NCBI GenBank assembly: GCA_027078545.1 | Contig: JALWXN010000004.1 | Location: 268,737-332,736, forward strand | Source of the DNA: Nitrososphaeria archaeon | GTDB lineage: Archaea; Thermoproteota; Nitrososphaeria; Geothermarchaeales; JDFR-13 | Length of the DNA stretch: 64,000 nt | Direction: 5' to 3' | Shown here: piece by piece, positions 35,371 through 41,491 of the stretch | How the letters are laid out: every line of letters begins with the position of its first letter | Numbering within the stretch: the stretch's first letter is position 1 | The notes under the pieces: model-generated | What the model was told of the DNA's origin: nothing | Seen by the model: the letters and a program-made list of their open reading frames with translations, nothing else | Databases searched by the model: none | Translations under genes and position numbers: made by a program

Positions 35371-36009
35371 GTGGATTCACGTGTGGTGGTAATCGTGACC
35401 CACGGGATAGTGCTCCAGATACCCGGGGAACCAGCTGGGACATGGTACTCACTATTCAACTTGTACTTCAGTCTGGGACTGCTAGTAGGCTCAGTAGTAA
35501 TAGGGATGTTGTTGTATTTCGTCTGGAAGTACAGAGAGTCAGTATCAAACGAGAGTGACGACATAAAGCCAGGGGTAGTGCCTGGAGAACGGAGTAACAT
35601 GAAGCTCATAGTAGTATTCTTTGGGCTAACATCGATCATACTCTTCACACTAGCGTCATACTCCATCTTAGTGACTAACTATGTGGAGAAGGTTCCCAAG
35701 GCAGACGACATATTCGAGGTAACGGTGCAGGGTTTCCAGTGGGGTTGGCGCTTCATATACCCCAATGGAACGGAGGTCGTTGGTGAGGTTGTGGTTCCAA
35801 AGGATAAGATCGTCGTCTTCAGAATAACCAGCATGGATGTTTTCCATAAGTTCCAACTTATTGAGTTTAGAACAGGTGCAGACGCTCTTCCAGGAGCCTT
35901 TAACGTGATATGGATAAAGCCTACTGAGGCCGGCACATACACCATACAGTGCTATGAGCTCTGTGGAATTGGGCATTCCTTGATGGTCGCTACTCTGAGG
36001 GTCGTGTGA
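35371..36009 (+). CDS. coxB: Cytochrome c oxidase subunit II (CuA type)
   Basis: Electron-entry subunit of a heme-copper oxidase. Two transmembrane helices (about 27-53 and 78-102) and an extracellular cupredoxin domain. All CuA ligands are visible: H159 (DVFHKF), C194, E196, C198, H202 and M205 (CYELCGIGHSLM); aromatic GFQWGWRF (121-128) is the electron-transfer patch. GTG 35371, 35383 and 35395 are all possible starts; the first is used here. Probably receives electrons from the cupredoxin encoded two genes downstream of subunit I+III rather than cytochrome c. Confidence 0.93.
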   Translation: MDSRVVVIVTHGIVLQIPGEPAGTWYSLFNLYFSLGLLVGSVVIGMLLYFVWKYRESVSNESDDIKPGVVPGERSNMKLIVVFFGLTSIILFTLASYSILVTNYVEKVPKADDIFEVTVQGFQWGWRFIYPNGTEVVGEVVVPKDKIVVFRITSMDVFHKFQLIEFRTGADALPGAFNVIWIKPTEAGTYTIQCYELCGIGHSLMVATLRVV

Positions 36010-36026: not shown

Positions 36027-38360
36027 GTGGAGAACAAGAGTGGATTGATGAGATGGCTAACAACTACGAATCATAAGGACATAGGGCTTCTATACTTAGT
36101 AACTTCGCTATACTTCCTAATGGTAGGAGGTACATTGGCTCTAACCTTCAGGCTACAACTAGCCTTCCCCCAAGCGGAGATTCTCAGCGCATCTGCCTTT
36201 AACCAAGCAATAACTATGCACGGACTTATAATGGTGCTATGGGCAATCTCTCCCTTCGCCTTCGCCTTCGCCAACTATATAGTGCCGATCCAGATTGGAG
36301 CTAGGGACATGGCGTTCCCTAGGCTTAACGCGCTTAGCTACTGGCTCTACTTATTTAGTGGCCTCCTAGCAGCATTATCGTTCTTCCTACCGGGTGGGGC
36401 CCCTGATGTAGGGTGGACCTACTACGTGCCATTGTCAACTCCCAAGTTTACCCCTCAGCCAGGTGTCACAGTCGCAGCTTTGGCATTAGCAATGCTGGTC
36501 GCTTCTGTGACCGTTGGTACGATAAACTTCATTGTTACGATTGCAACCTTGAGGGCACCGGGAATGGGCTGGTCTAAACTACCCATGTTTACTTGGGGGA
36601 TACTTTACACAGTGTTGCTTATGTTGTTCGCATTTGGGCCAGTGGCTGCAGGTTTCTTCCTACTAGCTATAGATAGAGTGTTTGGCACAGCATTCTTCAC
36701 CTCTCCGGAAGGAGGAGCCATACTATGGACGCACATGTTCTGGTTCTTTGGCCATCCCGAGGTCTACATTGTACTCGCTCCTGCTATCGGTGTTGTTGGT
36801 GATGTGATAGAGACCTTTACCAGGAAGCCTCTCTTTGGAAGGAAGTACATACTGATTGCTTTCGGAATAGCCAGCTTCATCAGCTTCATAGTATACGTTC
36901 ACCACATGTTTGCTACAGGAATCAACCCCATAATTAGAGAAGTGATGAGCATAACTACGGAGTCGATATCAGTCCCATTCGGCGTAATAATGCTGTCATT
37001 CATATTCTCGTTCTACAAGGCTAGGGTGAGGATCAGGACACCTCTGCTCTTCGCGATAGGATCCATAGTACTATTCATTGTTGGAGGCATAACGGGTGTG
37101 TTCAACTCCTCAATAGCTCTAGACAGGTTTATCCGTGGCACCTACTGGGTAGTTGCTCACTTCCACTACGCGATGGTCGGTGCGACACTCTTTGGACTTC
37201 TAGCAGCGATGTACTACTGGTATCCAAAGATAACTGGCAAGATGTACGATGAAAAGCTAGGTAAGATACACTTCGCCATAGCGTTCATCGGCTTTAACCT
37301 ACTATACTTCCCAATGTTCGTTATCTACGAGATGCCTAGGAGAGTAAACACCTACTTCGTAGAGGAATGGATACCGATGAACCAGTTAGCGACACTAGGA
37401 GGTTATGTCTTCGGACTTTCATTCCTAATAATGGTCTACAACCTTCTAAAGAGCCTCAAAACAGGGCCACCAGCTGGTAATAACCCGTGGGGTGCCTGGA
37501 CTCTAGAGTGGATGACAACCTCTCCCCCACCGCCACATAACTTCGACTTCGAGCCCATGATAAGTGGTAATCAGATCACCTTCTACACCAACGGAGGTGT
37601 GCCACATAAGCACATCGAGTATCACACCATGATGCCGATGTTGCTGTCTGTCTCACTGATGTTATCGTTCTTCGGTCTTATGATGTATACACCACTGTTC
37701 ATTATCGGTGCTGCGATGCTAGCAGCGGTATTGACCAAGTGGCTCATCGATGACATCTACGACAGATTCGTCATACCAGAGCCAGAAAACACTATGAAGT
37801 GGCCATTCGACCATATGAATAGGCTGAAGTTCGGTGTATGGATACTGGTAATTAGCGAGGCTATGCTATTCGCAGCTCTATTCGGTGCATATAGCTTGCT
37901 TAGAATCAACCTGATAGGTGAATGGCCGTATGGACCAGCGGTTCACGATGTTAGGCTGGGCGGTGTCAACACAATAATCCTACTGACAAGTAGCCTAACG
38001 GTAGTACTTGCAGTCGCATATGCTAAGATGGGTGACCAGCGTAAGATGCTGTACTCACTTGGAGCGACCTATGTCTTAGGCCTAATATTCCTCGGCCTAA
38101 AGGGCTATGAGTGGATGAAGCTTTATGACGAGGGCTTCACACTGACTAGTGATCTCCCATCATCGCTATACTATGTCATGACGGGCACTCACGCAGCGCA
38201 TATGATCGCGGGCATGATAGCGCTGTCATACATCATTGTGAAGGCATTGAGAGGAGTGTACAATGAAAAGAACTATGACGGTGTAGAGGCGTTCGGAATC
38301 TATTGGCACTTCGTTGACATTGTCTGGATATTCCTATTTGCGATCTTCTACTTGATGTGA
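36027..38360 (+). CDS. coxA: Cytochrome oxidase subunit I+III fusion
   Basis: 777 residues: subunit I (about 1-520) joined to subunit III (about 545-777). Subunit I has NHKDIGLLY, the heme ligand region HGLIMVLW, ARDMAFPRLN with the D-channel Asp and Asn, H243-P-E245-V-Y247 (CuB His, D-channel Glu, cross-linked Tyr), CuB pair YVHHMF and heme ligands HFHY. The Glu marks type A1. However, the K-channel lysine position (VPTGIK in most A-type) is I321 in VPFGVIMLS. The subunit III part has WILVISEAMLFAALFGAY and FGIYWHFVDIVWIFLF. The same fusion is known from Sulfolobus SoxM. Codons favour TAC over TAT, unlike rpoB. Confidence 0.96.
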   Translation: MENKSGLMRWLTTTNHKDIGLLYLVTSLYFLMVGGTLALTFRLQLAFPQAEILSASAFNQAITMHGLIMVLWAISPFAFAFANYIVPIQIGARDMAFPRLNALSYWLYLFSGLLAALSFFLPGGAPDVGWTYYVPLSTPKFTPQPGVTVAALALAMLVASVTVGTINFIVTIATLRAPGMGWSKLPMFTWGILYTVLLMLFAFGPVAAGFFLLAIDRVFGTAFFTSPEGGAILWTHMFWFFGHPEVYIVLAPAIGVVGDVIETFTRKPLFGRKYILIAFGIASFISFIVYVHHMFATGINPIIREVMSITTESISVPFGVIMLSFIFSFYKARVRIRTPLLFAIGSIVLFIVGGITGVFNSSIALDRFIRGTYWVVAHFHYAMVGATLFGLLAAMYYWYPKITGKMYDEKLGKIHFAIAFIGFNLLYFPMFVIYEMPRRVNTYFVEEWIPMNQLATLGGYVFGLSFLIMVYNLLKSLKTGPPAGNNPWGAWTLEWMTTSPPPPHNFDFEPMISGNQITFYTNGGVPHKHIEYHTMMPMLLSVSLMLSFFGLMMYTPLFIIGAAMLAAVLTKWLIDDIYDRFVIPEPENTMKWPFDHMNRLKFGVWILVISEAMLFAALFGAYSLLRINLIGEWPYGPAVHDVRLGGVNTIILLTSSLTVVLAVAYAKMGDQRKMLYSLGATYVLGLIFLGLKGYEWMKLYDEGFTLTSDLPSSLYYVMTGTHAAHMIAGMIALSYIIVKALRGVYNEKNYDGVEAFGIYWHFVDIVWIFLFAIFYLM

Positions 38361-38367
38361 GGTGAGA

Positions 38368-38655
38368 ATGATGGCGAAGGAGCCAATAAACCTATATGTT
38401 GGTGTTTGGGGGCTGCTGGTAGGGCTCACGATACTTGAGATATTCATGGTACTGGTGGAGATGCCGATCATACTGCTAATAACAGGTGTGCTACTCCTAG
38501 CAGGTGTGAAGGCGGGATTCGTAGCACTATTCTACCAGCACCTAAAATGGGACGACGTAGCAATATCATGGTTCTACCTAATGGCCCTATTCTTTGCACT
38601 ATTCATCGTAATGGTCTGGACAGGTGGATCGGCGGTCTGCCAGGTGGAAATATGA
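38368..38655 (+). CDS. Cytochrome oxidase subunit IV-like membrane protein
   Basis: About 95 residues with three transmembrane helices and the prokaryotic subunit IV pattern GVKAGFVALFYQHLKWD. It probably stabilises the oxidase; it has no metal site. A GAGGTG ribosome-binding site at 38357-38362 supports ATG 38368 or 38371. The stop overlaps the next ATG (ATGA). Confidence 0.85.
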   Translation: MMAKEPINLYVGVWGLLVGLTILEIFMVLVEMPIILLITGVLLLAGVKAGFVALFYQHLKWDDVAISWFYLMALFFALFIVMVWTGGSAVCQVEI

Positions 38656-39134
38656 GGGGGGTCATCATCACACTAGTAGCAATAGCTCTAATCATCGATC
38701 TAGCGATAATAGCGGTATTGGTATTCGATCTCCAACCACCACTCCGCGGAGGTGCAACCGTCACAATAACCCCAGACTATGAGATAACGGTCTATGGAGG
38801 GGAGACCAACATAAATGGTCAAGTGGCGTACGCATATGGACTATCCCCCGACAACCTTACAGTACCAGGCCCCTCATTCGAGTTTAAACGTGGCGATGTT
38901 GTAGGCTTCACTTTTGTGAATGTGGGGAACCTCCCACATACATTCTCATTAGTCCCCAGAGTTGACCCTGCCAATCCAGAGATTATCGACGACTATGATA
39001 CGGGACAGATTGAAGGAGGTGGTCAGGGGAGAGTTGTTGTACAGTTCAATCAGGTGGGTACACTGAACTATCAATGTGTGGTGCCAGGTCACGCTGCTCT
39101 GGGGATGTGGGGGAATATAACGGTAACTGAGTAG
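38652..39134 (+). CDS. Membrane-anchored blue copper protein (cupredoxin)
   Basis: 160 residues. An N-terminal hydrophobic helix (about 4-25) anchors it outside the membrane; the rest is a cupredoxin with type 1 copper ligands H96 (GNLPHTF), C142, H147 and M152 (YQCVVPGHAALGMWG). In aerobic archaea such proteins (sulfocyanin, halocyanin, plastocyanin-like) carry electrons to the terminal oxidase, and the 4-base overlap with the subunit IV gene fits that role. The family within cupredoxins is not certain. Confidence 0.9.
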   Translation: MRGVIITLVAIALIIDLAIIAVLVFDLQPPLRGGATVTITPDYEITVYGGETNINGQVAYAYGLSPDNLTVPGPSFEFKRGDVVGFTFVNVGNLPHTFSLVPRVDPANPEIIDDYDTGQIEGGGQGRVVVQFNQVGTLNYQCVVPGHAALGMWGNITVTE

Positions 39135-39207: not shown

Positions 39208-40695
39208 ATGAACAAGTTTGTTTTGGTGGTTCTACTTCTGATCACTCTGATAGTTTCGACTGTTGTGGGTATAGTCTTAGTGTTCTTTCCACAGTACTCG
39301 CCCTTGACGGGTGGTTTTACCGGAAACCAGTACATAAACCAGCCTCCAGCCGCCGACTTCACCTTAACCATGATAAATGGCACTAAGTTCAGGTTGAGTG
39401 ACTATGCTGGAAAGGTTATAGTCATCTCCTTCATCTACTCTCATTGCCCTGACATATGCCCAGCTATAACCTCTGGATTTGCAGAGATAGGTGATATTTT
39501 GGAGGCTGAAGGAATTCTGGGAGATGCCATCCTTGTTCTCATACCTGTTGACTACCCGGGTGGCTATGTTGTTGCCGCCACGACTGATAGTCTTTACTAC
39601 TTGAATTATAGTGGTGTCCCCGAGTGGAAGATAGAGTTGGACTATATACCCATGGGGGTAGAGATGTCCCAGGATGCAGGGAGGATTGTGACATGGAGCG
39701 ATGACACGGTATACATATATGATAGAGACGGCTCTCTACTTACAAGGTTCCTATATCCAGATGGTATTAGCGACGTGTTCGTATCGGGTGCGGGTCTATT
39801 CATCGCTGTAGCATCAGGAAACGTTGTCGACATATATATAGAGGTTTCAGAGGGGCTTGAATATTCATACAACAAGTATTCTTCGGTCATCCTAGATAGC
39901 GATGTAGTTGGTCTGGGAGCAACAACAAATGGCACATACATATACACTGTCACTACAGACGGACTTCTATATAGGATATACAATGGTGAGGTGGATGCCA
40001 ACATAAGTGTTATTAACAAGACTGTGGTCTGGGGGGATATTGCGTATAGCGGGTCTGTGGCGCTCCTAGCGACGAATGATTCGCTCTACATGTACAACGT
40101 ACTTTCCAACTCACTGATAGAGCTTCCGTTTTCACCTGATACTGTGATTGACTATGATATATCCCAAACTGGAGACTATGTTGCCTTAGTAACAGTTGAC
40201 GGGGTTTACCTACTAAACGACGACGGTGAGGAGGTTTGGGTTAGACCTACAAGTGCCTCTAGTGTGTCCATATCTGGTGACAATTATTTCGTATCTATAT
40301 CCGAGGGAAATAGGGTGTACAGGCTGGATATTAACGGAACTGTTCAGTGGGAAACATCTATTGAAAGCGATGTCATGTTTGTGGATGTCACTATGGAGAG
40401 GGACTCGCCTAGAAGGCTGAAGGAGTGGAGTGAGATCTACGATGCGGAACAGACAATATTCCTATATGGATCTTACAAGACATTGTCAAGGATTTGGTCG
40501 AACTACGGAATAGCTGTTGCATATGTCGATGTGGATGATCCAGCTACATCATATCTTGTGGCTCATACTGGGATGGTATATATCATAGATAAGGAGTTTA
40601 AGGTTAGAATCTTCTTCATAGGGGCTCCACCGCAGTGGAGCGCGTCTGACGTGGTTAATGATGTAATGATACTTGTCAAGGAGGAGGTGGAATAG
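39208..40695 (+). CDS. SCO-type copper chaperone interrupted by a seven-repeat beta-propeller
   Basis: 495 residues. Residues 1-28 are a membrane anchor. Residues 45-104 are the first half of an SCO/SenC thioredoxin fold: FTLTMINGTKFRLSDYAGKV and YSHCPDICP with copper ligands C80 and C84. About residues 105-388 are an insertion with seven similar beta repeats starting near 118, 158, 196, 242, 282, 322 and 358 (for example GRIVTWSDDTVYIYDRDG, GDYVALVTVDGVYLLNDDG). The SCO fold resumes at FVDVTMERDSPRRLKEW (391-407) and has the third ligand H453 in VAHTGMVYIIDKEF. SCO proteins deliver copper to CuA, and the oxidase subunit II gene is 4 kb upstream. The propeller's partner is unknown. Confidence 0.88.
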   Translation: MNKFVLVVLLLITLIVSTVVGIVLVFFPQYSPLTGGFTGNQYINQPPAADFTLTMINGTKFRLSDYAGKVIVISFIYSHCPDICPAITSGFAEIGDILEAEGILGDAILVLIPVDYPGGYVVAATTDSLYYLNYSGVPEWKIELDYIPMGVEMSQDAGRIVTWSDDTVYIYDRDGSLLTRFLYPDGISDVFVSGAGLFIAVASGNVVDIYIEVSEGLEYSYNKYSSVILDSDVVGLGATTNGTYIYTVTTDGLLYRIYNGEVDANISVINKTVVWGDIAYSGSVALLATNDSLYMYNVLSNSLIELPFSPDTVIDYDISQTGDYVALVTVDGVYLLNDDGEEVWVRPTSASSVSISGDNYFVSISEGNRVYRLDINGTVQWETSIESDVMFVDVTMERDSPRRLKEWSEIYDAEQTIFLYGSYKTLSRIWSNYGIAVAYVDVDDPATSYLVAHTGMVYIIDKEFKVRIFFIGAPPQWSASDVVNDVMILVKEEVE

Positions 40696-40727
40696 ATCCT
40701 TTCTTTCTTTATACTTTTCTATATCCT
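40696..40727 (+). terminator. T-rich terminator between convergent genes
   Basis: CTTTCTTTCTTTATACTTTTC immediately follows the SCO stop. Runs of T on the coding strand are the usual archaeal intrinsic stop signal. It reaches into the last codons of the convergent CPSCG membrane protein. Confidence 0.4.
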
Positions 40728-41411
40728 TACTTTCCCTGCTACATAGATCATTACAGCTATGTTGATTATGATACCTATGACAAGTAGGCTGTTTAACAGG
40801 TTTACATATAATGCTGATACTCCTAAAAGGGTGCCTGTAGAGGATGATACTATCACTCCTGCCACTGTCATTAGGGCTGTGAATCCACATGAAGGGCATG
40901 ACACTGCTGCTGATGCCGCTGTGGAGACTCCCACTACGCTCAGTGTTGTGGCTAGTCCTGAGGTACCAGCCTCGGCTCTACACTTACCCTTCATAGTCTT
41001 GTTATAGAACCATATTATTGTGAATACCATGGCTGATACTATCGAGACTGCTAATATAAGCGCCATTGTAAGTGGGCTGAAGGTGACTAGCCAGTATGTC
41101 TTCCCAGTTAGGAATCCTGGATTGTTGTTCAGGAAGTAATCGTTGAACTCTAGGCCATACCATATCAAGACGCCCCTAGGTATCTCCATGTTAGGCGTTG
41201 GGTATGTTATCTCCTTGGGAGGGTCTCCAAACCCATATATGACGCTAGTATTGCCTGTAAAGATGATCTGCACGGCTAGGGGGGTCAGGAAATTGATTAT
41301 GAAGAGTATGGATAGTGCTAATGCGAAGAAGCGTGGATGCCTAGTGAGGCTATGTACCAAAACGTTGAAGGTATGGATAAGCCTCCTCATCTCTCTAGTT
41401 ATCGTAATCAT
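40719..41411 (-). CDS. Polytopic membrane protein with an intramembrane CPSCG motif
   Basis: I do not recognise the family. About 230 residues: transmembrane helix near 27-50, a 60-residue external loop (ITYPTPNMEIPRGVLIWYG), then four helices. AVSCPSCGFTALMTV lies at the start of the fourth helix, and an upstream cytoplasmic loop has a single Cys (KGKCRAEAG). CxxC at a membrane edge next to oxidase assembly genes suggests metal or thiol handling for cytochrome oxidase, which is inferred from position only. ATG 41411 is chosen; a TTG at 41438 would add nine residues. Confidence 0.75.
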   Translation of the reverse strand: MITITREMRRLIHTFNVLVHSLTRHPRFFALALSILFIINFLTPLAVQIIFTGNTSVIYGFGDPPKEITYPTPNMEIPRGVLIWYGLEFNDYFLNNNPGFLTGKTYWLVTFSPLTMALILAVSIVSAMVFTIIWFYNKTMKGKCRAEAGTSGLATTLSVVGVSTAASAAVSCPSCGFTALMTVAGVIVSSSTGTLLGVSALYVNLLNSLLVIGIIINIAVMIYVAGKVRI

Positions 41412-41491
41412 AGGTGTAGGAATATTAATGTTTAGCAATTCATGTATATGTATCCATGGGTGCCGGGATGCCCGAGTGGACCAAGGGGTCG

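Follow-up and report, generated by a model that had tools for sequence, protein, structure and literature searches.

A SCO-type copper chaperone with a predicted seven-bladed beta-propeller nested in its thioredoxin-like domain, encoded beside a CuA oxidase in a Nitrososphaeria archaeon

The window, the whole 64,000-nucleotide stretch of Nitrososphaeria archaeon DNA analysed here, contains a set of cytochrome oxidase genes on the forward strand, followed on the same strand by a SCO gene. Subunit II (35371–36009) scores above the TIGR02866 cut-off and carries a complete CuA motif, CYELCGIGHSLM. The next gene encodes a 777-residue fusion of subunits I and III (36027–38360), which was assigned from its sequence and from gene order rather than by a family scan, and which is conserved in the cox locus of three other genomes (G002, G003 and G001). 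It is followed by an oxidase subunit IV-like protein (38362–38655), with a match to TIGR02229 below the cut-off, and by a membrane-anchored cupredoxin (38652–39134, start codon set by homology), which exceeds the PF00127 cut-off and contains a C-x4-H-x4-M motif. These four genes, all upstream of the SCO gene, are the neighbours named in a first-pass annotation of this DNA, and the profile matches and motifs bear that list out, with subunit I+III resting on sequence and gene order and the subunit IV-like protein on a sub-threshold match.

The SCO gene (39208–40695) is preceded by GGTGAGGGG, a purine-rich stretch resembling a ribosome-binding site, and is translated as a single frame of 495 codons without a stop. 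On the opposite strand, a convergent gene (40719–41438, reverse) encodes a membrane protein of 239 residues with no Pfam or NCBIfam match. Its SCPSCGF motif is identical across six aligned homologues. A homologue of this gene lies near SCO in all family members checked, including the short stretches from G004, G008 and G005 that have no cox match. The convergent membrane protein is a possible partner of SCO.

The 495-residue protein matches the Pfam SCO1-SenC family (PF02630) with 68.7 bits against a cut-off of 22.8, but in two collinear stretches; with the insert removed, a single stretch aligns with 81.7 bits. In phmmer searches, solved SCO structures such as Blr1131/ScoI likewise match residues 49–106 and 388–482 as two collinear pieces. 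The earlier view that a SCO domain is interrupted within one frame is therefore upheld. The N-terminal part of the domain comprises residues 46–115 (39343–39552) and runs through strand 107–113 and D115, as delimited by Pfam, the alignment and the structure model. The C-terminal part, residues 397–495 (40396–40692), begins with ERDSP. The copper ligands predicted at the outset, C80 and C84 in the CPDIC motif (residues 80–84, 39445–39459) and the distant His453 (40564–40566), are invariant across 28 aligned SCO sequences from the phylum. A single N-terminal membrane helix is predicted at residues 3–26 (39214–39285) by AlphaFold2 and DSSP, and its orientation would place the soluble domain on the outer side of the membrane, as is usual for SCO and as had been proposed. 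What departs from a usual SCO protein is the continuity of the thioredoxin-like domain, normally about 130–170 residues, which is here broken by about 280 residues. We class the protein as a SCO variant, since its homology, its orthology and its ligands are all kept and an unbroken domain is typical of the family without being a functional trait. No further SCO match above the Pfam cut-off was found in this genome (G000).

The insert occupies residues 116–396 (39553–40395), with a boundary that is uncertain by a few residues. It is delimited by comparison with orthologues, a match to DUF5711, structure models, Foldseek and the pattern of substitution. Self-similarity within the insert peaks at offsets of 40, 80, 124, 163, 204 and 241 residues, and both the best score and the top-30 measure were reached in none of 300 shuffles. 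Searched alone against Pfam, the insert matches DUF5711 with 29.3 bits (gathering score 26.3), with PQQ_2, ACSF4 and COPA/B matching below their cut-offs; sequence searches returned no solved relative. The whole protein was modelled by AlphaFold2 from the 28-sequence alignment (mean pLDDT 87.1, pTM 0.73), giving the SCO elements in their usual order, residues 52–113 and then 401–491, with seven blades between them. Modelled alone, the insert reached a pLDDT of 86.9 and a pTM of 0.85, the remaining four models scoring 71–79. Both models display seven four-stranded blades with velcro closure. A Foldseek search of the PDB returned seven-bladed propellers first, and also WD40 proteins; the top match was the designer propeller 7bid, with a TM-score of 0.70 when normalised to the insert and of 0.72 when normalised to the target. 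The modelling indicates that the insert is a complete seven-bladed beta-propeller of the WD40/PQQ type, in agreement with the closed propeller foreseen from the sequence. The repeat spacing of about 36–46 residues given in that first reading also holds, at about 37–46 here, but the GxxxxxxTxDxxYxY pattern assigned to each repeat is loose and is absent from blade 3. Loop details and the orientation of the two domains are insecure, because the alignment of the insert consists of two sequences only.

The point of insertion was located by comparison with uninterrupted orthologues, which read VVLVMVSVD followed directly by PERDTP. The interrupted protein reads AILVLIPVD up to residue 115, then the insert, which ends in DVMFVDVTM at residue 396, then ERDSP. 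A SCO-like strand is thus present twice, at residues 107–113 and 389–395, and the two copies fit the SCO profile equally well (81.7 and 81.1 bits). Because sequence scores could not separate them, the strand was assigned from the model of the isolated insert. When residues 104–399 are modelled alone, residues 104–117 are disordered (pLDDT below 50), while residues 389–395 (FVDVT, 40372–40392) remain a strand and close blade 1 as its velcro strand. This suggests that the first copy is the SCO strand and that the propeller was most likely inserted past D115, inside the conserved DPERD loop and directly behind the strand that comes next after the CPDIC helix. The first-pass annotation had instead taken FVDVTMERDSP as the SCO strand and set the insertion before it, a placement that the alignment and the isolated-insert model move to the position after D115. 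The likeness between SCO strand 107–113 and propeller strand 389–395 may have eased the insertion, or it may be convergence. In thioredoxin-like folds, the loop that matches DPERD sits at the end of the sheet where the CxxxC helix lies.

Another species of the genus, G002, encodes the same 495-residue protein with 93% identity, on a contig that is public (WAKB01000010.1, from a Candidatus Geothermarchaeota archaeon metagenome-assembled genome). SCO is encoded without the insert in two further species of this genus and in other members of the family. In a search of 12 genomes across the order, two had the insert, six had an uninterrupted SCO of 213–216 residues (G001, G003, G009, G004, G008 and G005), and the rest had no clear SCO orthologue. 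Gene order around SCO is kept in G001, G003 and G009. The occurrence of the insert in two species, with uninterrupted SCO in their sisters and in the wider family, points to a lineage-specific domain insertion, and the simplest history is a single gain on the branch leading to G000 and G002, in their common ancestor.

Strong purifying selection acts on the insert: between the two species dS is 1.06 and dN/dS 0.054, with pN 0.055 against pS 0.567. Their C-terminal SCO parts are 100% identical, without a single replacement. Across the propeller, replacements number seven in each of blades 1 and 4, two in each of blades 2 and 3, three in blade 5 and four in each of blades 6 and 7. This unevenness may mark an interface; the pattern was noticed post hoc and serves as a lead only. 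The same comparisons bear on whether two genes have been joined, or a chimera has been created in metagenome assembly, an explanation to which the metagenomic origin of the public genome and the absence of the insert from sister species lend some weight. Against it stand frames of identical length (495 residues) in separate assemblies, on contigs of 1.14 Mb and 0.12 Mb, at a dS of about 0.9, together with shared gene order, a dN/dS far below 1 and a base composition of the insert equal to that of its flanks, so that an artefact is highly improbable. A frame error or a fusion of two genes, which the first-pass annotation had named as a finding that would overturn its proposal, is ruled out, as far as sequence can tell, by the single frame, the independent orthologue in G002 and the purifying selection.

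Within the phylum, the architecture appears to be rare. Across 398 genomes of the phylum, all other strong SCO matches lie in frames of at most 306 residues, and no other SCO with a comparable insert was found in this set of about 400 genomes. Long frames with weak SCO matches (792–2064 residues) were examined in the same genomes and set aside as other, tandem thioredoxin-like contexts; in most of them a propeller-like N-terminal region precedes the thioredoxin-like domain. Among plasmid records, none spans 80% of the query at a single location, and a literature search of partial coverage yielded no description of a SCO protein with a propeller. As to a donor within the lineage's own genomes, neither G000 nor G002 has a PQQ_2 match, and the insert is the only match to ACSF4 in both. 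The nearest relatives found for the insert are secreted, membrane-anchored propellers from another archaeal family (G139, L073 and L074); in a small local search their whole-sequence E values were 3.7e-21 and 8.8e-14, and the relation is distant. L073 (514–1803, reverse) and L074 (609–2228, forward) encode two secreted, C-terminally anchored propellers of the WD40/PQQ-like kind.

With the copper ligands kept, no other recognised SCO in the genome and a CoxII that carries a CuA site, CuA loading most likely remains the task of this protein. The SCO part would pass copper to the CuA site of the adjacent CoxII. The propeller would offer an added binding surface beside the active-site face, where it could hold CoxII, the cupredoxin or another assembly factor during copper or disulphide exchange. 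A membrane-anchored SCO that continues to load CuA and uses its nested propeller to hold a partner is, on balance, the reading we consider probable, and we judge the propeller to be an acidic binding or docking module on a working CuA chaperone. Docking of the cupredoxin or the oxidase in particular is putative, and is the most reasonable guess as to the partner. No matching indel that follows the presence of the insert was seen in CoxII or the cupredoxin. Residues 116–395 contain no Cys and no His in either insert-bearing species and the insert has a net charge of −30, which argues against copper binding of the usual kind by the propeller. A copper enzyme built on a propeller, as in NosZ, was considered and rejected for lack of such metal ligands in residues 116–395. 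The insert is no general requirement for CuA loading, given that sister species accomplish this with an uninterrupted SCO.

The charge of the insert is weak evidence for docking, because extracellular proteins are often acidic and glycosylated. The main rival interpretation is that the propeller is a tolerated passenger with a role at the cell surface (stability, glycan shielding, or attachment to the S-layer or other surface proteins) apart from copper transfer. The insert has six N-glycosylation sequons where 2.4 are expected from shuffles (p ∼0.02), and G002 retains five of the six, which gives this interpretation some support. It also fits the secreted and membrane-anchored nature of the nearest propeller relatives and the lack of the insert in sister species, and placing an insert in a loop whose chain ends are neighbours is likely to cost little structurally. 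The strong purifying selection across the insert, and its position in a loop after the strand beside the active-site helix of the genome's only recognised SCO, are harder to reconcile with a mere passenger, and we regard a surface role detached from copper transfer as less likely than not, while still the main competitor to docking.

Another possibility is that the protein no longer delivers copper and acts as a thiol-disulphide reductase or redox sensor, its propeller recognising a different client in the manner of NHLRC2 or SOQ1. SCO proteins are able to act as thiol-disulphide oxidoreductases (PMC6696091), thioredoxin–propeller tandems that form an active-site cleft are known (PMC6107167), and where the DPERD loop has a conserved DP this protein has D...M. 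All three copper ligands are nevertheless kept, the C-terminal part that includes His453 is the one with no change between the two species, and the gene adjoins a CuA oxidase in a genome with no other recognised SCO; such a change of function is therefore quite improbable.

A bolder form of the docking reading is that the nested propeller was gained in one step, forming a client-binding cleft over the copper site, so that a domain absent from sister species would set the selectivity of CuA loading. We put this forward tentatively, as somewhat less than an even prospect. If true, it would amount to a natural before-and-after experiment in the evolution of a metallochaperone. More broadly, it is unusual for a whole propeller to lie inside a thioredoxin-like fold next to the active-site face, and in SCO no described case was found in the part of the literature covered. 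As the gene exists with and without the insert within one genus and in the same oxidase cluster, purified proteins can be used to ask what determines the client of SCO and what allows a fold to take up a large nested domain. A possible route for such insertions is also suggested by how alike the SCO strand and the propeller-closing strand are.

Among known systems, the protein is closest to the SCO1/SenC chaperones (PF02630), such as Blr1131/ScoI (PDB 4wbj) and human SCO1, sharing with them the membrane anchor, the thioredoxin-like fold, the CxxxC motif with a distant His and the neighbouring CuA oxidase. The known members consist of one continuous domain, whereas here a propeller of about 280 residues lies within the DPERD loop. 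The uninterrupted orthologues of the genus and family represent the same gene, in the same cox cluster in G001, G003 and G009, and differ in their length of 213–216 residues against 495 and in having no insert.

For the combination of a thioredoxin-like domain with a propeller, NHLRC2 is the most useful analogy for function. Its thioredoxin-like domain and propeller together create a conserved cleft that surrounds the thioredoxin active-site motif, and the elements closest to the propeller are the CCINC motif and 26 residues inserted behind the second strand of the thioredoxin fold (PMC6107167). NHLRC2 and SOQ1 differ in carrying a TlpA-like thioredoxin domain with CCINC, followed in tandem by an NHL propeller; the nested order, SCO affiliation and CPDIC motif of the present protein place it outside that group. 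Archaeal tandem proteins (G284, G395 and G156; L052, L054, L055 and L057), as read from their sequences, also combine a propeller-like N-terminal part, repeat domains and a thioredoxin-like domain in one extracellular protein, but they are 874–1124 residues long, with an uninterrupted thioredoxin-like part that follows the propeller and is not clearly SCO. In L054, a membrane-spanning part follows the thioredoxin-like domain. The secreted archaeal WD40/PQQ-like propellers, although nearest to the insert in sequence, are free-standing, membrane-anchored proteins without a SCO part.
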